Source of the DNA: Thiomicrorhabdus sp. Kp2
GTDB lineage: Bacteria; Pseudomonadota; Gammaproteobacteria; Thiomicrospirales; Thiomicrospiraceae
Length of the DNA stretch: 64,000 bases
Assembly (NCBI RefSeq): GCF_000478585.1
Contig: NZ_ARWI01000001.1
Location: 2,046,001 to 2,110,000, forward strand
Direction: 5' to 3'
This document shows positions 2,448 to 64,000 of the stretch, piece after piece (position 1 is the stretch's first letter; each line of letters opens with the position of its first letter). A program made the translations under genes and the position numbers. The notes under the pieces were generated by a model, which had not been told where the DNA came from, did no database searches, and saw only the letters and a list, made by a program, of their open reading frames with translations.

Positions 2448-3131
2448 ATGGATAAACATGACACGCTTGCAGATTTAGATCCCTGTATTATTGTTGAACC
2501 TTCTGTTCCAGCCAGTTCAGCGGTTATTTGGTTACATGGTCTGGGCGCGGATGGACACGATTTTGAAGGGATATTACCGCAGTTAAACTTGCCAAAAAAT
2601 CATGCTATCCGCTTTGTTTTTCCACATGCACCTGTACAGCCCGTTACCGTAAATGGTGGCATGGCAATGCGCTCTTGGTATGATATTTACTCGATGACGA
2701 TTGCAGAGAGAGTTGATATTGAAGGTATTAATCAATCGAGTGGTGTGGTAAAAGCTTTGATTGAACAGCAAGTTGCTCAAGGTATTGCCGCAGATAAAAT
2801 TGTGTTGGCTGGATTTTCGCAAGGTGGTTTGGTCGTGTTACACGCTGCACTTCATTCAAAACAACCGATAGCAGGGGTTATAGCCCTATCCACTTACTAT
2901 CCCTCAGTGTGTTGGCAAGAGGCCATGTTTCAAAAAAACAGTGCAATGCCCATTTTTATGGCGCATGGCAATTTTGACCCAGTGATTCCTCTATCTGTGG
3001 CACAAAAGTCAAAAGCGTTTTTAGAGAGTCTAAATTTACAGGTCGAGTGGCACACTTACCCAATGGAACACTCTGTCTGCATGCCTGAAATAGAGCATAT
3101 TTCAAGCTGGCTAACCGCACAATTGTTATAA
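2448..3131 (+). CDS. Carboxylesterase/phospholipase family alpha/beta hydrolase
   Basis: This 227-residue cytoplasmic hydrolase belongs to the acyl-protein-thioesterase/carboxylesterase family (EstB, YpfH-like). It opens with the oxyanion motif LHGLGADGHDF (29-39). The nucleophile elbow is GFSQGG (122-127, Ser124). Asp177 (GNFDP) and His208 (MEHS) complete the triad in the expected order. There is no signal peptide. Family members hydrolyse short acyl esters; the natural substrate cannot be told. The HugZ-like gene follows 27 bp downstream and is probably co-transcribed. Confidence 0.9.
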   Translation: MDKHDTLADLDPCIIVEPSVPASSAVIWLHGLGADGHDFEGILPQLNLPKNHAIRFVFPHAPVQPVTVNGGMAMRSWYDIYSMTIAERVDIEGINQSSGVVKALIEQQVAQGIAADKIVLAGFSQGGLVVLHAALHSKQPIAGVIALSTYYPSVCWQEAMFQKNSAMPIFMAHGNFDPVIPLSVAQKSKAFLESLNLQVEWHTYPMEHSVCMPEIEHISSWLTAQLL

Positions 3132-56773: not shown

Positions 56774-57091
56774 CTACTTAACTGGACAGAACGTTTGTTG
56801 CATAGCATTCATTAACATCAAGATATTGTGGTCAGGAACTTTACATAAAATCTTACTGCCATCACGTCTAGAGGTAATAATGCCTTTCTCGCGAAGAATA
56901 TCGATGTGTTGAGAAATATTACTTTGAGTGGTACCAACTTGTTTTACGATATCCATTACTGGCAATTCTTTTTCACCAATAACACATAATATTTTAAGAC
57001 GTAATGGGTGCCCCATTGCTTTAAGCGCCTTAGAAGCTTTATTGATGTTATCTTCTTTCATTTCAAAATATGAGCTGTCTTGGATTGTCAT
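56774..57091 (-). CDS. ArsR-family regulator, SqrR/BigR-like
   Basis: 105 residues. Winged HTH of ArsR type (ALKAMGHPLRLKILCVIGE, QSNISQHIDILREKGIITSRRDG). Two cysteines, C36 in the RLKILC helix and C102 in the C-terminal FCP motif, are 66 residues apart, the same spacing as the redox Cys pair of SqrR/BigR persulfide sensors. A third, C83, is extra. Metal-binding ArsR motifs (ELCVCDL) are absent. It may therefore sense sulfide or persulfide, fitting a sulfur oxidiser, but no sqr or sulfur gene is next to it. Confidence 0.8.
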   Translation of the reverse strand: MTIQDSSYFEMKEDNINKASKALKAMGHPLRLKILCVIGEKELPVMDIVKQVGTTQSNISQHIDILREKGIITSRRDGSKILCKVPDHNILMLMNAMQQTFCPVK

Positions 57092-57262
57092 TTTATTATT
57101 TCACTGTATAACGATATTATTATTAAGCTTGAATTCTAATGAAATACCTTCAATCTGTCACCTAAAGTTAATTTATAATGAACAAATTATTTTTGGGAGT
57201 ACGCTTTTTTCGTTATTTTTTGATTGAATGAGGCTGAAACACAATTATTTATGGAGAGTGGT

Positions 57263-58621
57263 GTGAGTACATCGGGACTAAAAAAAGTCATGTTAATCGG
57301 CTCAGGCGCAGTGCTAGGAGCTTTAATTGCAGTAGGTACAACGGTTTGGGCTGATAAAGAAGAGAGTCTTCCTGCTGTTCAAAGCGAACAAATATCATTA
57401 CCTTTGCAAGAACTACGTGCTTTTGTAGAGGTCTTTGAAAGAGTTTCCCATGACTATGTTGATGCGATTGATGATAAAAAGCTGCTTGAAGGAGCGATCA
57501 GTGGAATGCTTTCAAGTTTAGATCCGCATTCAGCCTATTTACCACCAACTGATTTTGAAGAGATGGAAGAGCACACTAAAGGTGAATTTGGTGGTTTAGG
57601 GATGGAAGTTGGGATGGAAGATGGTTTTGTAAAAGTCATCTCTCCAATTGACGATACACCCGCTCAAAAAGCAGGCATTCAGTCAGGTGACTTAATCATT
57701 AGACTTGGTAAAGAACCTGTAAAAGGCAAAACATTGAGTGAAGCGGTTAAAGTCATGCGTGGTAAACCAGGCACTAAGTTAATGCTGACGATTGTGCGTA
57801 AAGGTGAAGATGCACCCCTTAAAATTGAAATTACTCGTGCCGTTATCAAAGTTAAAAGCTTAAAACAACGTCTCCTAAAAGATAATGTGGGTTATGCTCG
57901 AATCAGCCAGTTTCAGGTTAGAACAGGGCCTGATTTAGTTAAAGCGATTGAAACATTAGAAAAAGAGAATGGTAAACCTCTTGAAGGACTTGTACTTGAT
58001 TTACGAAACAACCCAGGTGGGGTGTTAAATGCTGCGGTTCAGGTTTCAGATGCCTTCTTAGAAGATGGTTTGATTGTCTACACAGAAGGGCGCATTAAGA
58101 ATTCAAAAATGCGTTTTGAAGCTGAAAAAGGTGACATCATGAATGGTAAGCCGATTGTGGTATTAATCAACGAAGGTTCAGCATCCGCTTCTGAAATTGT
58201 GGCGGGAGCTTTGCAAGACCAAAAACGCGCTATCATTGCGGGTAGAACCAGTTTTGGTAAGGGGTCTGTACAAACATTATTACAATTGAATAATGGCGCG
58301 GCTATCAAGGTTACAACGGCGCGTTACTACACTCCTTCAGGTCGTTCTATTCAGGCTGAAGGAATTAAGCCTGATGTGGACATCGAACTCGTTAAGGTTG
58401 AAAAAGTAGATAAAAGTGCTTTAACCAATATTAAAGAGAGTGATTTGGCAGGTCACCTAGAAAATGGTGACTCTGAAGACGAAAAATCAGCTGATGATAA
58501 AGTGGATAAAAAGAGCAAAGCCGAAACAGAATTAAAGACACTGCTTGATAAAGACTTTGAATTAAATGAAGCGTTACGTTTAGTTAAAGCGATGGCTCTT
58601 GCTCAACAAATGGTTAAGTAA
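57263..58621 (+). CDS. ctpA: C-terminal processing protease CtpA
   Basis: 452 residues from the GTG at 57263, six bases after GGAG; the ATG at 57251 and TTG at 57224 in frame have no RBS. Signal/anchor (10-30), PDZ (about 105-185; GEFGGLGMEVGMEDGFVKV), S41 protease domain with SASASE (306-311) and the Lys of FGKGSVQ (333). Degrades or trims periplasmic proteins. An acidic Lys/Asp-rich stretch precedes the C-terminal helix. yajL-like gene follows 24 bp downstream. Confidence 0.95.
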   Translation: MSTSGLKKVMLIGSGAVLGALIAVGTTVWADKEESLPAVQSEQISLPLQELRAFVEVFERVSHDYVDAIDDKKLLEGAISGMLSSLDPHSAYLPPTDFEEMEEHTKGEFGGLGMEVGMEDGFVKVISPIDDTPAQKAGIQSGDLIIRLGKEPVKGKTLSEAVKVMRGKPGTKLMLTIVRKGEDAPLKIEITRAVIKVKSLKQRLLKDNVGYARISQFQVRTGPDLVKAIETLEKENGKPLEGLVLDLRNNPGGVLNAAVQVSDAFLEDGLIVYTEGRIKNSKMRFEAEKGDIMNGKPIVVLINEGSASASEIVAGALQDQKRAIIAGRTSFGKGSVQTLLQLNNGAAIKVTTARYYTPSGRSIQAEGIKPDVDIELVKVEKVDKSALTNIKESDLAGHLENGDSEDEKSADDKVDKKSKAETELKTLLDKDFELNEALRLVKAMALAQQMVK

Positions 58622-58645
58622 ACTTAAACTTTTGAAGGTGAAAAA

Positions 58646-59203
58646 ATGTCAGATAAGGTGTTGGTTCCTCTCGCCCAAGGGTGCGAAGAACTCGAAGCCG
58701 TAACTATTATTGATATTCTGGTTCGCGGTGGTGTGCAAGTCATTACGGCAAGTTTGGACGATAATAAGATTATTACCGCCAGCCGTGGAGTGCAGTTGGT
58801 TGCTCAAAAAACACTGTCAGAAATCGTTGATGACGTTTTTGATATGGTTGTATTACCAGGTGGTTTGCCAGGTGCGGATCATCTGAATAATGATCAACGC
58901 ATTTTATCCATATTGCAGACAACCGTTGAGCACGGCGGTATTTCAGCCGCCATTTGTGCAGCACCCAAAGTGTTAGTCTCTGCTGGGTTATTAGACAATA
59001 AAAATGCAACCAGTTATCCAGGAGTGATTGATATCGCTCCAGCACCAGGTATGAAATATACCAACCAATCTGTTGTTCAAGACGGACAAATCATTACCTC
59101 ACGTGGTCCAGGAACAGCAATGGATTTTGCTTTGGCTCTGCTTGAACAGTTAAAAGGTAAAGCTGTTCGCATGCAGGTTGAACAAGCTCTAGTAAGGGCT
59201 TAA
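58646..59203 (+). CDS. DJ-1/PfpI family protein (YajL-like)
   Basis: 185 residues: VLVPLAQGCEELEAVTIIDIL with Glu15, VVLPGGLPGADHL and the nucleophile elbow AAICAAPKVLVSAGLL with Cys104. Members include YajL and DJ-1 (redox chaperone, glyoxalase or deglycase claims). The older label as thiamine-synthesis ThiJ is not supported by context. Confidence 0.93.
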   Translation: MSDKVLVPLAQGCEELEAVTIIDILVRGGVQVITASLDDNKIITASRGVQLVAQKTLSEIVDDVFDMVVLPGGLPGADHLNNDQRILSILQTTVEHGGISAAICAAPKVLVSAGLLDNKNATSYPGVIDIAPAPGMKYTNQSVVQDGQIITSRGPGTAMDFALALLEQLKGKAVRMQVEQALVRA

Positions 59204-59537
59204 ACCTCAGATAACTTTTTATGCAATGAGTTCTGTTTTTGTGGTTCATTTACAAAAAAGATAATCAATCACAAAATATAGATACCTTTATGCTTTAGCT
59301 GCTCGGTTTGCATAACCTTAATCGTTTTTTATATAAAGTCATCACACAAATCTCCCTAGCTACAATAATAAAACGCTCATCTCACAAGACTTTTCGCCCT
59401 TTATTTTGTCTAAAGAATTACCCCATTTATCCATTTTGAAATAAAAAATCATTATCTCGTGAAATAAAACAAACTTGTTAAGGTCATATTTATAGAAAGC
59501 ATTATTCTTTCTATAATCAGAAAATTGGAGAAATGAC
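59204..59537. promoter_or_regulatory. Upstream region of the hvfABC-like cluster
   Basis: 334-bp AT-rich region. A possible promoter is TTGCAT (59308-59313), 18 bp, TATAAA (59332-59337). A Fur-like site (14 of 19 to GATAATGATAATCATTATC) is at 59438-59456 with one exact half (AATCATTATC). A perfect 10-bp inverted repeat, TTATAGAAAG / CTTTCTATAA with 7-nt spacer (59490-59516), lies just before the RBS GGAG. Which of these is used is unknown. Confidence 0.4.
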
Positions 59538-59888
59538 ATGAAAACAAATTCACGTAGAGACTTTTTAAAATTGGCAGGAGCGGCCATGGTAGGGGCGAGC
59601 GGTGTGGCTTCAGCATCTGAGAATCCTTTTGGTTTTAAACCAATGACATCAGGTTATTCACAAGTTGCTGAAGGGAAATGCGGAAGTAAAGAAGCGGAAG
59701 GTAAGTGTGGTGGTAAAAAGCCAGAGGGTAAATGTGGCGGCAAAGAAGCGGAAGGTAAGTGTGGTGGTAAAAAGCCAGAGGGTAAATGTGGCGGCAAAGA
59801 AGCCGAAGGTAAGTGCGGTGGTAAAAAGCCAGAAGGCAAATGTGGCGGAAAAGAACCTGAAGGTAAGTGTGGTGGAAGACCTTCTTAA
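59538..59888 (+). CDS. hvfA: HvfA-like RiPP metallophore precursor with eight EGKCG repeats
   Basis: 116 residues. Twin-arginine signal SRRDFLK (5-11), hydrophobic stretch and VASA cleavage site (after residue 26). A short linker is followed by eight tandem 9-residue units starting at 45, 54, 63, 72, 81, 90, 99 and 108, each beginning EGKCG. Unit ends alternate KEA/KKP, so the real repeat is 18 residues (54 bp), amplified three times. EGKCG is the known modification site of HvfA-family precursors, whose Cys becomes part of an oxazolone/thioamide-type copper ligand made by the MNIO enzyme HvfB. hvfB and hvfC follow, which secures the call. RBS GGAG at good spacing. Confidence 0.92.
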   Translation: MKTNSRRDFLKLAGAAMVGASGVASASENPFGFKPMTSGYSQVAEGKCGSKEAEGKCGGKKPEGKCGGKEAEGKCGGKKPEGKCGGKEAEGKCGGKKPEGKCGGKEPEGKCGGRPS

Positions 59889-59960
59889 TTTTTAAAAACA
59901 ATGATACAGGCATGCTTTGTGGGTATGCTTGTAACATAAGTAACGCATAATAGAGAATCG

Positions 59961-59994
59961 TTTTTAAAGTTACCAGGCCTGGTAACTTTAAAAA
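59961..59994. repeat. 34-bp perfect palindrome between hvfA and hvfB
   Basis: Core ACCAGGCCTGGT (59972-59983) extended perfectly by TTTTTAAAGTT / AACTTTAAAAA to 34 bp. Placed 72 bp after the precursor stop and 39 bp before the maturase ATG. As RNA it would form a long hairpin with an A-rich 3' arm, possibly a partial terminator that keeps precursor in excess over enzyme. Confidence 0.88.
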
Positions 59995-60033
59995 GGTGAT
60001 TTTCCCCCTGTTAGTATCTTGTTAGGAATTAAT

Positions 60034-60879
60034 ATGAAGACGCTAAGAAGCTATCCTGTTCAAGGTGTCGGTTTAGGTTTGCGTAGGGACTTTTTTAATG
60101 AAGTGCTTGATACACCCGATTTAGCCGTAGATTTTATGGAAATAGCCCCTGAAAACTGGCTGCAGTTTGGTGGCAAACAAGGGCGACAATTGAGAACGCT
60201 TACTGAACGAACGCCTTTTGTTTGTCACGGTTTATCTCTTGATTTAGGTGGCATGAAACCTTTAGATATGGATTATCTTAAAGCCTTAAAAGGTTTTTTT
60301 GCAGAGCACGAGATTAGAGCCTATACCGAACACTTGAGTTATTGCGGCGATAGTGGACATCTTTATGACTTGATGCCAATTCCGTTTACTGAAGAAGCGG
60401 TGTTCTATGTGGCGGATAGAATTCGTCAAGTACAAGATGTTTTGGAGCGAAAGATAGGCATTGAGAACGTCTCTTTTTATGCCATGCCAAGCAATCAAAT
60501 GAATGAACAAGAGTTTGTAACAGCGGTTTTAAACGAGGCAGATTGTGAGCTGTTATTTGACGTAAACAATACCTATGTTAATTCAATCAATCATCAATAT
60601 GATGCACAACAATATATGCAGTCTATGCCGTCAGAACGAATGGTTTACCTACATATGGCAGGGCATTTTGATGAAGCGGAAGATTTAAAAATTGATACCC
60701 ACGGCCAACCCGTTAAACAACAAGTGTGGGATTTATTAGAACAGACCTATCAAACTCACGGCTTGATTCCTACGCTATTAGAGCGAGACTTTAATATCCC
60801 TCCCCTGCAAGAATTATTAGCAGAAATTGAGCAGATAAGAGCCTATCAGCAGGCATGGAGCAAATCACATGTCGCCTGA
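60034..60879 (+). CDS. hvfB: HvfB-like MNIO (DUF692) RiPP maturase
   Basis: 281 residues from the ATG at 60034 (AGGA seven bases before; a TTG at 60019 is less likely). TIM-barrel MNIO family with its metal and core residues: E40 N41, C64 H65 G66, E99 H100, E144 N145, DVNN (176-179), H207 and H211 in HMAGH, D221 and H223 in DTHG, E250. Such enzymes use a multinuclear iron centre and O2 to convert Cys side chains in precursors. Here the substrate is the EGKCG protein upstream. Overlaps hvfC by 11 bp, so tightly coupled. Confidence 0.95.
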   Translation: MKTLRSYPVQGVGLGLRRDFFNEVLDTPDLAVDFMEIAPENWLQFGGKQGRQLRTLTERTPFVCHGLSLDLGGMKPLDMDYLKALKGFFAEHEIRAYTEHLSYCGDSGHLYDLMPIPFTEEAVFYVADRIRQVQDVLERKIGIENVSFYAMPSNQMNEQEFVTAVLNEADCELLFDVNNTYVNSINHQYDAQQYMQSMPSERMVYLHMAGHFDEAEDLKIDTHGQPVKQQVWDLLEQTYQTHGLIPTLLERDFNIPPLQELLAEIEQIRAYQQAWSKSHVA

Positions 60880-61651
60880 TTCATTGCCCTATTTTCAACA
60901 ATTACAAAAACAATTCACGGCCTATATCCGCGACCCTGAAAAAAACAACTATGCACCAGGCTCTGAACAAGAAATCGAAACAAGAAGGCTCAAAATTTAT
61001 GAAGCCTTGTTTTTTAACAATCTACATGGCTTTTTCAGTCAACTGTTTCCCGTTTGCAAAGAGGTACTTGGAGAACCACGGTGGGCGGAGATGGTTCGCG
61101 AGTATATGGTTAAACACCAATCGCAAACGCCACTGTTTCATGAATTAGGTGAAGAGTTTTTGGATTTTCTGCAAAATGAATTCAATCCACAAGAGGATGA
61201 TCCCCAATTTCTTCTAGAATTAGCCCACTATGAGTGGGTTGAGTTAGCACTTGCAACCTCAGAAGAGCGTGGTTTTATAAGCCAAAATAAGGCAAGCACG
61301 ATTGATTTAGATGCAAAATATGAACTCTCACCCGTGGCTTGGCCTTTGGCTTATGAATGGCCTGTACATAAAATAGCAAAGCGTTATCAGCCTACAGAAA
61401 AACCTGTAGAGGTCACAACCTTATTGGTTTACCGTTCTGAAGTGGATAATGAACCTGCTGAGAAAATTGATTTTATGGCGTTAACACCGCTTCTATATCA
61501 ATGGGTAATAGAGCTACCCAACTCTGAAAGTGCTAAAAAAGCGCTTTTTAAGGTGAGTCAAGGCAGTGAAATTGATGAAGATACGCTAGTAAAATTTGCT
61601 CAGCAGACTTTGATGGAATTTCAAAAATTAGGCATTATTCAGGCTGTCTAG
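60869..61651 (+). CDS. hvfC: HvfC-like (DUF2063) RiPP maturation partner
   Basis: 260 residues. N-terminal DUF2063 domain (IRDPEKNNY, RRLKIYEALFFNNLHGFFSQLFPVCKEVLG) and a C-terminal part of the recognition-element type (FDL-like PVAWPLAYEWPVHKI, LLVYRSEVDNE). BufC/HvfC proteins deliver the precursor to the MNIO enzyme. The older name 'putative DNA-binding' for the family is misleading. Overlap with hvfB and order A-B-C match the known hvf and buf clusters. Confidence 0.93.
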   Translation: MSPDSLPYFQQLQKQFTAYIRDPEKNNYAPGSEQEIETRRLKIYEALFFNNLHGFFSQLFPVCKEVLGEPRWAEMVREYMVKHQSQTPLFHELGEEFLDFLQNEFNPQEDDPQFLLELAHYEWVELALATSEERGFISQNKASTIDLDAKYELSPVAWPLAYEWPVHKIAKRYQPTEKPVEVTTLLVYRSEVDNEPAEKIDFMALTPLLYQWVIELPNSESAKKALFKVSQGSEIDEDTLVKFAQQTLMEFQKLGIIQAV

Positions 61652-61853: not shown

Positions 61854-62828
61854 TTGTGTTTGAGGGCAAACCGTTTGCAACAAGATATCGAAAAAGAGCC
61901 TATTAATCAGGTCAAACAACAACACAGGGTAGATTCAGTTTCCCTATTTACACTGATTAAGCAGGTTTCTCATTGGCGTTTTTGGCAGCGCGTATTTATC
62001 CACTTTAGAAACCGTCAAGGTACTGATGCGGTAGCCATCCTCGCCTATACCTCTTTGGTTGGGATTGTGCCCATGCTTGCGGTGATGCTGGGTCTGTTTT
62101 CTGTCTCAAGTTATTTTGATTCATTTGAAGCTTTGGTGATGGATCAGGTTGTACGTAATTTAATGCCCAACTCTCAACCTGTTATTGAAGAGTATTTGTT
62201 TAAGTTTTCATTAGCGGCAGCCAGTTTAAAAGGGCCAGGCCTGGTGGTGATGCTGTTTACCACTTTGATGTTGTTATGGAAAGTAGATCAAAAGCTCAAT
62301 GGGTTATGGTCTCACCGTTTAAAACGTAAGTGGTGGGTGAATATTTTGCAATATTTAGGGGTGAGTTTACTTGGGCCTTTGCTTTTAGGTTTGAGTTTGG
62401 TGATTAGTTCGTCACTACTTGCTTTACCGTTATTTGTAGAAACCACACCTTTTATTGATAGGCTCACGTCGGGCATGAAAATTGTGCCACTGATATTAGC
62501 TTGGTTAGGGTTTACCGCACTCTATAAATTGGTTCCTGTTGTTAAGGTACCTTTTAAAATGGCCTTAATTAGCGGACTGTTTGCCATGATAGAGCTTGAA
62601 TTTTTAAAATCAGGTTTTGCGATGTATGTTGAATGGTTTCCAACTTATGCTGTGGTTTATGGCGCTTTTGCTGCAATCCCTTTGTTTTTACTTTGGTTAT
62701 ATTCAATCTGGTTTATTGTCATTTGGAATGGTGCTGTGGTTGCTACCTTAATGAATATGAATTCGCATAAACCCAGTACAAGCAACTCAAATAAAACAAA
62801 CTCTCAAAAAGAGGTTTTTAGTGAGTAA
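61854..62828 (+). CDS. YihY/BrkB family inner-membrane protein
   Basis: 324 residues, six or so membrane helices; ILAYTSLVGIVPMLAVMLGLFS and the GALIS/GFYAxxPLFLLWLYSIWFIVIWNGAVV-like C-terminal part are typical. Once misnamed RNase BN. Function unresolved (possible transporter or assembly factor). The start is uncertain: TTG at 61854 or 61860, since no ATG lies near. It overlaps the permease gene by 8 bp, so the two are co-translated. Confidence 0.85.
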   Translation: MCLRANRLQQDIEKEPINQVKQQHRVDSVSLFTLIKQVSHWRFWQRVFIHFRNRQGTDAVAILAYTSLVGIVPMLAVMLGLFSVSSYFDSFEALVMDQVVRNLMPNSQPVIEEYLFKFSLAAASLKGPGLVVMLFTTLMLLWKVDQKLNGLWSHRLKRKWWVNILQYLGVSLLGPLLLGLSLVISSSLLALPLFVETTPFIDRLTSGMKIVPLILAWLGFTALYKLVPVVKVPFKMALISGLFAMIELEFLKSGFAMYVEWFPTYAVVYGAFAAIPLFLLWLYSIWFIVIWNGAVVATLMNMNSHKPSTSNSNKTNSQKEVFSE

Positions 62829-63843
62829 CGTCACTCTTAAAGCGGCAGTTCCACGCTTGTCTATAACCTTAACGATGCTTCTAATCACACTACTGATAGG
62901 GGTGGTTTTACATCTTGGTTCGGGGAGTGTGAATATTGATGTGGACTCAATTCAACAAGGGTTGAATGCACAACAATCTTTGGTATTGTGGGAGCTTCGT
63001 GTTCCCCGTTTATTGTTAGTGATGGTCGTTGGCGCTGGCTTAGCGGTTTCTGGTGTCGTTTTACAAGCGATGTTTCGTAATCCCTTAGCCGAACCAGGTC
63101 TGATAGGTGTTTCCAGTAGCGCCGCTTTAGGGGCGGTATTTGTTATTGTCCTGGGCTCGTTTTTTTGGCAAGAGATTCAATTTTGGCAATTGGGGATTGT
63201 GGCTTTTATGAGTGCAGGCCTGGCAACCCTGTTTATTTATAGTATTGCTACTCGCTTTGGTAAAACAGATGTTGCTTTGATGTTGTTAGCGGGGGTGGCT
63301 ATCAATGCTGTTGCAGGTGCGGCTACCCAGCTTTTAATCAGTGTTTCTGATGATAGTCAGCTACGTAGCGTTACTTTTTGGATGATGGGCTCCTTTGCCA
63401 ATGTGGATTGGTACGCCGTGATGGTTGTGACCATGTTAACCTTGATAATCAGTTTGCTATTTTGGCGTTTAGCTAAACCTCTGAATGCGTTTATGCTGGG
63501 TGAAAATATCTGTATGCATATGGGGTATGACCCTGCAAAAATTAAATGGCAAGTGATGTGGGGCAGTGCGCTCATGGTAGGAGTTGCCGTTGCCACGGTG
63601 GGTGTCATCGGTTTTGTTGGCTTGGTTGTTCCTCATATTGTTCGTCTAGCCACGGGTTCTGACCACAGGCGTTTAATTCCGTTAAGTGCTCTTGCAGGTG
63701 CGGTTTTATTGGTGTTTGCTGATTGGGTTGCCAAAACGCTTATTGCTCCTTCTGAACTCCCCATTGGGCTTCTGATGGCTCTGCTCGGTGGCCCATTCTT
63801 TTTAATCATGTTGCTGCAACAGCGTAAAGGTTGGGTGAGCTGA
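62821..63843 (+). CDS. FecCD-family ABC transporter permease
   Basis: 340 residues, GTG start. About nine to ten membrane helices; LWELRVPRLLLVMVVGAGLAVSGVVLQAMFRNPLAEPGLIGVSSSAALGA split over the typical N-terminal third and GFVGLVVPHIVR..GSDHR in the C-terminal third are the FecCD signature that contacts the ATPase. Imports siderophore, haem or cobalamin. The ATPase gene overlaps its stop by one base. Confidence 0.95.
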   Translation: MSNVTLKAAVPRLSITLTMLLITLLIGVVLHLGSGSVNIDVDSIQQGLNAQQSLVLWELRVPRLLLVMVVGAGLAVSGVVLQAMFRNPLAEPGLIGVSSSAALGAVFVIVLGSFFWQEIQFWQLGIVAFMSAGLATLFIYSIATRFGKTDVALMLLAGVAINAVAGAATQLLISVSDDSQLRSVTFWMMGSFANVDWYAVMVVTMLTLIISLLFWRLAKPLNAFMLGENICMHMGYDPAKIKWQVMWGSALMVGVAVATVGVIGFVGLVVPHIVRLATGSDHRRLIPLSALAGAVLLVFADWVAKTLIAPSELPIGLLMALLGGPFFLIMLLQQRKGWVS

Positions 63844-64000
63844 TGATTGAAAATCCGTTGCAAAGCATAAAACTTCAGAAGATTGATTATCAGTTAAAAA
63901 ATAAAAGCTTAATTGAAAACATTGATACTGAATTCAATACTAGCCAAATCAATGTGATTTTGGGAAAAAACGGTGCAGGTAAATCAACGCTACTGGCTTT
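63843..64000 (+). CDS. ABC transporter ATP-binding protein, 3' end outside window
   Basis: Starts at ATG 63843 inside the permease stop (TGATG). The visible 52 codons have an N-terminal strand, then LGKNGAGKST Walker A. It is the FecE/BtuD/HmuV partner of the permease before it. Cut by the window edge. Confidence 0.93.
   Translation, partial: MIENPLQSIKLQKIDYQLKNKSLIENIDTEFNTSQINVILGKNGAGKSTLLA

Follow-up and report, generated by a model that had tools for sequence, protein, structure and literature searches.

The locus described here lies within a 64,000-base stretch of DNA (referred to below as 'the window') from Thiomicrorhabdus sp. Kp2 (contig NZ_ARWI01000001.1, positions 2,046,001 to 2,110,000), which forms part of a single-contig genome of 2,725,706 bases. 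Three genes, hvfA, hvfB and hvfC, follow one another in that order on the forward strand (positions 59538 to 61651), where they appear to specify a precursor peptide, its modifying enzyme and a partner of that enzyme. Taken as a whole, the evidence makes it probable that this is a captophorin (oxazolin-type) cluster whose precursor is exported by twin-arginine translocation (Tat) rather than by the general secretory (Sec) route, whose expression is controlled by an extracytoplasmic function (ECF) sigma factor, and whose product buffers copper. The original prediction, made from the same DNA, had drawn attention to the repeat layout of the precursor; a more informative novelty is the Tat leader found across the lineage, together with the promoter of ECF type.

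Identity of the cluster

The assignment of the two enzyme genes rests on matches above curated thresholds. HvfB (281 residues; 60034 to 60879, with an ATG start codon at 60034) is a predicted peptide maturase of the multinuclear non-heme iron-dependent oxidative (MNIO, DUF692) family, scoring 430.6 bits against NF003818 (NCBIfam cut-off 360) and 348.6 bits against Pfam PF05114, for which it is the only match in the whole 2.73-Mb genome. It also matches PDB entry 3bww (E = 1.5e-72), with which the conserved blocks HGLSL, HLS, EN, DVNN, HxAGH, DTHG and ERDFN align; these blocks presumably hold the iron ligands. HvfC (260 residues; 60869 to 61651), whose reading frame overlaps that of hvfB by 11 bases, is a DUF2063 partner with a RiPP recognition element of the PME1 type (RiPP: ribosomally synthesized and post-translationally modified peptide); it scores 235.4 bits against NF050145 (NCBIfam cut-off 142) and also matches PF09836, PF22106 and PDB entry 3dee (E = 3.3e-7). 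An hvfABC-like cluster with precursor, MNIO enzyme and DUF2063 partner in this order and at these positions had been proposed at the outset, and that proposal holds.

The precursor gene, hvfA (59538 to 59888, forward strand), encodes 116 residues with eight cysteines, arranged as a Tat signal, the segment NPFGFKPMTSGYSQVA and eight EGKCG units. Assignment to the bufferins is not supported, HvfB lying below the BufB cut-off (NF050167, 273 against 310 bits) and the precursor matching no DUF2282 or BufA model in NCBIfam or Pfam; nor is assignment to the methanobactins, the MbnB model (TIGR04159) giving 40.4 bits against a cut-off of 325. The features of the captophorin/oxazolin (Buf_EGKCG) type are, by contrast, largely present: the 5-mer EGKCG is repeated (eight motifs, 59670 to 59885) in a precursor encoded upstream of an MNIO gene. 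The Sec signal of that type is replaced by a Tat signal, for which reason the cluster is classed as a variant. Judged by its predicted proteins, it belongs to this published kind.

A search with models of the HvfA and BufA families had been suggested at the outset: HvfB and HvfC pass their models, but HvfA gives nothing at E values up to 1 with the NCBIfam precursor models NF050137 and NF050188. The NF050137 cut-off is passed by the precursors of three Sec-type and two Tat-type relatives that were tested; one from the window's own genus (L131) clears it through its single paired unit. The model rests on the paired motif KCGExKCG, which HvfA lacks, and we read the missing match as a limit of the model, not as a lack of kinship.

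HvfB scores above its cut-off in 17 of 32 genomes of the genus and in 31 of 62 of the family. In two genomes of the family (loci L033, L036 and L150) HvfB and an HvfC-like gene are present, at L150 next to genes of CusB/CusF type, with no EGKCG precursor detected close by; their substrate may be encoded elsewhere or be of a different type.

A Tat leader throughout the lineage

The first 26 residues of HvfA (59538 to 59615; NSRRDFLK...ASA, then SEN, with the cleavage site assumed) combine an RRxFLK motif, moderate hydrophobicity and an AxA site, as in Tat substrates, and a Tat translocase is encoded in the genome, where TatC matches its Pfam model and the two genes directly before tatC read as TatA and TatB by eye. 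The leader scores 23.2 bits against TIGR01409 (curated cut-off 16.7), which bears out the Tat-type signal noticed originally; it falls under the cut-off of Pfam's own Tat model (18.5 against 22.7 bits).

The same leader recurs in the relatives of the window's precursor. Among 15 aligned leaders from four genera of the family, which share a consensus of the SRRDFLK type, the twin arginine and residues F9 and L10 are invariant. In all, 31 family loci were scanned (L001-L016, L022 and L023-L036; left out were L017, which is incomplete, L018-L021, L037 and L039, which are BufB-type or fragments, and L038, which is the same place as L011). Precursors with at least three units were obtained from 28 loci, and 27 of them carry the Tat motif (28 of 29 when L006, with two units and added by eye, is included). 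For comparison, 369 genomes were drawn evenly from the class; HvfB scored above cut-off in 117, from which 90 loci were taken. Of these, 66 yielded a precursor of three or more units and 24 no such precursor, some of the fetched contigs ending short. Only two of the 66 (L073 and L088) were flagged as Tat-type by script, each with its twin arginine in a 5' extension of the open reading frame (ORF) before the likely ATG, so that the class sample contains at most two Tat precursors and probably none. Two further ORFs marked by a cruder filter (L044 and L050) likewise have their twin arginine in a 5' extension. Hydrophobicity is also lower in the family leaders than in the leaders of the class sample (27 against 66; Mann-Whitney p 1.7e-9), as Tat signals should show.

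In a midpoint-rooted tree of 60 HvfB proteins, including those of the 30 best-scoring class loci, the family stands on one side of a branch with 100/100 support, as do all 27 Tat rows; a single Sec row (L028) is nested among them. Three changes in the 'Tat' state are counted on the tree because two nested rows have no precursor; the simplest reading would be a single switch from Sec to Tat in the ancestor of the family, followed by one reversal. By these comparisons the Tat leader is lineage-wide. Among 398 genomes of the phylum, a profile of the Tat signal plus the NPF segment that follows it gave a full-length match only in the window's own genome, itself the only known positive in that draw, with partial matches in 16 others. 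A scan of contigs with the leader profile lists at least 593 stretches and sets no limit on how widely Tat leaders occur; of 16 confirmed loci, seven are precursors under the names Thiomicrorhabdus, Hydrogenovibrio or Thiomicrospira, and nine more, among the matches listed, we take from their partial coverage to be matches to the Tat portion only. Separately, at one of the BufB-type loci (L037), a BufA2-like precursor (2456 to 2731, reverse strand; 28 bits against a cut-off of 60) carries a Tat-like ARRMFLK leader.

Oxazolin and bufferin precursors are described as Sec-dependent, and the corresponding survey used the presence or absence of a predicted Sec signal to collect its precursors (PMC12452194); Tat-type precursors may have been passed over in it. 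The word 'tat' is absent from the main texts of PMC12452194 and PMC13097082, and 'twin-arginine' from that of PMC13419390. A search of the open literature, with subscription papers and supplements outside its reach, found no Tat-signal RiPP precursor, no Tat-exported peptide of an MNIO cluster among the papers listed (in one of them Tat concerns CopA and CusD, not the MNIO cluster) and nothing joining Thiomicrorhabdus, copper and RiPP; as far as that literature goes, the Tat-leader variant is undescribed.

Behind the signal lies the segment NPFGFKPMTSGYSQVA (residues 29-44; 59622 to 59669), counterparts of which, by a loose NPFxxxxMxSGYxQVA-like pattern, occur in 26 of 27 Tat-type precursors and in 57 of the 66 precursors of the class sample. 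Because the segment is alike in Tat and Sec types, it appears that one signal replaced the other and that the portion directed at HvfC was retained. Sitting where a recognition leader would, it is probably the recognition part for HvfC; in the related precursor FonA, single alanine changes before the core were tolerated (PMC13097082).

An ECF-type promoter motif and the neighbouring sigma factor

A pattern search located an ECF-sigma-type promoter motif, GAAATAAA-N13-GGTC, at 59461 to 59485 on the forward strand, 53 to 77 bases ahead of the hvfA start codon. The pattern GAAAYAAA-N13-GGTCNT occurs once in the whole genome, at this site, and gives 22 matches over the 32 genomes of the genus (8 for a reversed-pattern control), 11 of them before hvfA; most of the remaining 11 may be due to chance. 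Across family loci, the strict motif GAAA[CT]AAA-N13-GGTC precedes hvfA in 19 of 29; for the relaxed form GAAA-N17-GGTC the count is 24. This depends on the spacing, since spacers of 10-16 and 18-23 bases give only 0-2 of 29, and shuffled sequences match in 0.5% of cases. The strict motif (spacer 12-14) is absent from all 90 loci of the class sample.

An ECF sigma factor gene, of NCBIfam subfamily NF009170, starts 797 bases past the end of the window (genome position 2110797) and is followed by a gene whose counterpart in a relative (L153) matches DUF3379, a domain for which no paper was found. The start of the sigma factor gene was located in 22 of 27 loci scanned, and the relaxed motif precedes it in 18 of these 22 (or 17 of 21, as two of the 22 are one place). 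The strict motif stands before hvfA in 17 of 21 genomes that have an orthologue of the sigma factor and in none of six that do not (p 0.0007), and the relaxed motif in 20 of 21 against two of six (p 0.004), neither value being corrected for kinship. These associations indicate that hvfABC is probably switched on by the sigma factor encoded nearby; the corresponding cluster of Haemophilus influenzae depends on the ECF sigma factor RpoE2 and is induced by hypochlorous acid (HOCl) (PMC7907618). The ECF-type promoter could serve as a reporter for the inducing stress.

A perfect 10-bp inverted repeat, TTATAGAAAG-N7-CTTTCTATAA (59490 to 59516), lies between the promoter motif and the start codon, where it overlaps a TATAAT box; the inverted repeats listed upstream in the relatives do not include it. 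A sigma-70 promoter containing that box (TTTATA-17-TATAAT, 59489 to 59517) was considered and rejected, the scan having given six promoter-like sites where 7.0 were expected by chance, and an upstream ArsR gene was likewise rejected as the regulator of hvfA, nothing linking the two.

The repeat array and its predicted modification

The units, of the form EGKCG[GS]xxx, occupy residues 45-116 (59670 to 59885) and contain the predicted substrate cysteines. As originally described, they are identical in length: motif counting and repeat analysis find exactly eight EGKCG motifs, each opening a 9-residue unit, and all seven gaps between cysteines are 9. The window gives six matches to a degenerate pattern of two consecutive units, and 100 shuffles give none. 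Tandem Repeats Finder resolves the array into a 54-bp unit (3.5 copies, 94% matches); two of the 54-bp double units are identical at 53 of 54 positions and a third differs at six bases, and copies so nearly identical point to recent tandem duplication. The supposition that the layout might be undescribed is borne out in so far as gaps of 9 throughout occur in only three of 94 precursors (those of the window, L003 and L010, all in the genus, each species having an HvfB above cut-off). The layout is nevertheless labile: the L010 array, although it shares the stride of 9, has EGSCG in place of EGKCG in six of its eight units, and species of the genus differ in the number of units, in the stride and in the residue ahead of the cysteine. 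On these comparisons the uniform layout is young, rare and labile, and not a conserved structure. Gaps other than 5 are in the majority in the class sample (229 of 424), and precursors with no 5-residue gap at all make up seven of 28 in the family against one of 66 in the class sample.

Variation in the residue before the cysteine is also seen in three family precursors (L032, L034 and L035) that consist mostly of QGNCG-like units with a single EGKCG at the end. For L006 (2894 to 3172, reverse strand) and L135, a second short hvfA-like ORF with a TRRGF leader and the motifs EGRCG and EGGCG lies near the first, and a second promoter motif of equal spacing lies approximately 400 bases from the first motif.

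The chemistry named in the original prediction (oxazolone/thioamide) is out of date, the modified group of EGKCG peptides having been reassigned to 5-thiooxazole (PMC13097082, PMC13419390). In these products each repeat has lost four hydrogens (4 Da), and the peptides are ligands for Cu(I) (PMC13097082). The published minimal substrate is two units at a stride of 5, which is what makes the layout of HvfA relevant to the enzyme: FonBC modified such a two-repeat substrate and not a one-repeat substrate, and did not tolerate proline within the 5-mer, whereas HvfBC acted on all the repeats of its native precursor (PMC13097082). Given these limits of FonBC, the stride of HvfA and the prolines adjoining its units, not all eight cysteines need be modified. 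The single 9-residue units would be a simple substrate with which to ask which stride the enzyme requires.

An AlphaFold2 model of the peptide, built from eight sequences, has a mean predicted local distance difference test (pLDDT) score of 46.9 and a predicted template modelling (pTM) score of 0.15, the unit blocks averaging 39-45; from this model, for which no fold search was run, no beta-helix or other fold can be claimed. A beta-helix has been reported for a relative with paired units (PMC12452194).

Copper genes around the cluster in relatives

The neighbourhoods of nine relatives (L147-L155) were read. In four of them (L147, L148, L149 and L151) hvfA lies directly downstream, on the same strand, of genes for an outer-membrane protein, a resistance-nodulation-division (RND) transporter and a CusB-like protein (cusCBA-type), and in L150 hvfBC lie directly downstream of cus-like genes. 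Pfam models identify CusB-type, ACR_tran and OEP proteins in L147, CusB and CusF in L150, CusB in L151 and the end of a multicopper oxidase in L149; the other cus-type genes were judged by eye. CopL-like proteins, below the NCBI cut-off, are encoded at the start of the cus genes in L147 and L150. At the start of the cus genes in L149 stands the strict promoter motif, which overlaps the first ORF, as delimited by script, at its 5' end. The position of hvfA behind cusCBA-type genes in four relatives supports copper, and the peptide is probably copper-binding.

Proposed mechanism and alternatives

In the mechanism proposed here, the neighbouring ECF sigma factor, freed by metal or oxidative stress, would transcribe hvfA-hvfB-hvfC from GAAA-N17-GGTC. 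In the cytoplasm, HvfC would hold the precursor through its NPF...SGYxQVA segment while HvfB, with its iron cofactor, would oxidise the cysteines of EGKCG to 5-thiooxazole, with the loss of four hydrogens at each of up to eight sites. TatABC would export the finished peptide, signal peptidase would cleave after ASA, and the resulting periplasmic peptide of approximately 90 residues would buffer several Cu(I) ions, alongside, in some relatives, an efflux pump of CusCBA type. With cleavage at the assumed site, the 90-residue peptide has a calculated mass of 8970.1 Da, which modification at all eight sites would lower to about 8937.8 Da. Modification of the cysteines, recognition of the segment, dependence on Tat and on the sigma factor (with its inducer) and copper binding are inferred; export after cytoplasmic modification, with copper as the ligand, appears likely, as had been proposed originally.

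Several observations weigh against this scheme. One genome (L014) has an orthologue of the sigma factor but lacks the motif before hvfA, two of the six genomes without the orthologue carry the relaxed motif, and among 60 genomes the two genes are uncoupled in eight that have HvfB alone and five that have the sigma factor alone (both occur in 21, neither in 26). One family precursor (L028) pairs a Sec-like leader with a core of the same type. The stride of HvfA is 9, and proline directly precedes four of its units. The very low confidence of the AlphaFold2 units gives, in that model, nothing that speaks for a folded cargo or apo-form, and no Cus-type genes adjoin hvfABC in the window or in four of the nine relatives' neighbourhoods.

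The most serious alternatives concern the extent of modification and the purpose of the product. If the enzyme, meeting a stride of 9 without paired units, modified only some of the cysteines, a mixed thiol/thiooxazole peptide would result. This is possible although doubtful: FonBC left its one-repeat substrate unmodified (PMC13097082), and the scarcity of class precursors without a 5-residue gap means that most enzymes see at least one paired unit, but gaps other than 5 are common in that sample, HvfBC modified all of its own repeats (PMC13097082), and the 9-residue layout persists in three species that each have an HvfB above cut-off. A main role in oxidative or reactive-chlorine stress, or with another metal, copper being secondary, can be entertained only tentatively. 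The ECF-type promoter, the induction of the H. influenzae cluster by HOCl through RpoE2 (PMC7907618) and the lack of Cus-type genes beside the cluster in the window would suit such a role, but some relatives have cusCBA-type, CopL-like and multicopper-oxidase genes next to the cluster, and EGKCG products bind Cu(I) (PMC13097082).

The route and state of export invite two further readings. The peptide might load Cu(I) in the cytoplasm, become compact and be carried out by Tat, acting as a one-way, single-use copper exporter that feeds periplasmic efflux, which we regard as unlikely. Tat might instead be incidental, with modification and export as in the Sec-type relatives and the twin arginine tolerated by Sec, or both routes used; the Sec-like leader of L028 on a core of the same type would fit, as would the rule in the class sample of Sec-type precursors with a similar recognition segment, yet the invariance of RR, F9 and L10 in 15 leaders of four genera, the less hydrophobic h-regions and a leader above the Tat-signal cut-off make this a poor prospect. 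That HvfA is a decaying or unmodified repeat protein without a product is scarcely credible: unit number, stride and the residue before the cysteine do vary freely among relatives, but the leader, the Cys-Gly of the units, HvfBC and the promoter are kept while the linkers vary, and 17 of the 32 genomes of the genus keep HvfB above cut-off. The Tat-exported, ECF-controlled, copper-buffering captophorin is the reading that we retain. Since Tat favours finished cargo, it renders the order of modification, folding or loading, and export testable, and the family provides a natural experiment; the state (modified, folded or metal-loaded) in which bufferin and oxazolin precursors cross the membrane is a question that a Tat family could address.

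Other features of the locus

Before the cluster (56774 to 59203) lie genes for an ArsR-family regulator, an S41 peptidase and a DJ-1 protein; S41 and DJ-1 genes are found in the neighbourhoods of five of the nine relatives, accompanied in four of those five by an ArsR gene. After hvfC come a YihY gene and then, at 62821 to 64000, genes for a FecCD-type (BtuC-like) permease and an ATP-binding cassette (ABC) ATPase, followed by the sigma factor gene outside the window.

The gap between hvfA and hvfB contains a perfect 34-base palindrome (59961 to 59994), which could tune the ratio of hvfA to hvfB. Its reading as a plain terminator was rejected, as little of a T run follows it and its core is a repeat with 557 copies in the genome. 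That core, ACCAGGCCTGGT, is a highly iterated palindrome (557 copies in 2.73 Mb, against none for a reversed control). Exact copies of the 16-base palindrome lie at 2375, 9162, 19018, 49265, 59970 and 61754 of the window, and TTACCAGGCCTGGTAA with up to two mismatches matches 19 times there, against 0.02 expected. Copies of the palindrome occur in 40 of 60 genomes of the family, with hundreds in many and none or few in others.

Comparison with known systems

A close parallel is the oxazolin/HvfABC system of H. influenzae, of the captophorin family, which shares with the window the precursor, MNIO enzyme and DUF2063 partner, the EGKCG motif, periplasmic targeting and ECF-dependent expression (PMC13419390, PMC7907618), the last two being predicted for the window. 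The secretion signal differs (Sec-dependent for oxazolins, PMC12452194; Tat in the window), as does the core, with three AEGKCGEGKCG motifs in the H. influenzae peptide and eight single units at a stride of 9 in the window. The H. influenzae operon includes a DoxX-like gene, hvfX, whereas no DoxX gene lies between or next to hvfA-hvfC in the window, and it is governed by a sigma factor of ECF group 13 with a ZAS anti-sigma factor (PMC7907618), whereas the window's neighbour is an NF009170 factor followed by a DUF3379-type gene; RpoE2 itself was not compared.

Fontiphorin (FonABC of Fontimonas thermophila) is likewise the product of a minimal three-gene cluster, with seven sites, 5-thiooxazole established by nuclear magnetic resonance (NMR) and up to four copper ions bound by a fusion to maltose-binding protein (MBP), and it differs in that the Fon fragment is two units at a stride of 5, SGEAKCGEGKCGEK (PMC13097082). 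The Buf_EGKCG/oxazolin type 1 precursors of Antoine et al. (PMC12452194) resemble that of the window in their EGKCG repeats and in their MNIO and DUF2063 partners; the window's precursor departs from them in its 9-residue units, with one EGKCG each, and in its Tat signal. The bufferins (BufA1/BufA2) and methanobactin are also MNIO-modified copper peptides, although neither DUF2282 nor BufA models match the window's precursor. Export through Tat is itself familiar for copper-handling proteins of the periplasm, from CopA/CueO and from CusD of Cupriavidus metallidurans, a copper-binding lipoprotein of the Cus system with a predicted Tat leader (PMC10304878), but these are an oxidase and a lipoprotein, and not peptides modified by an MNIO enzyme.

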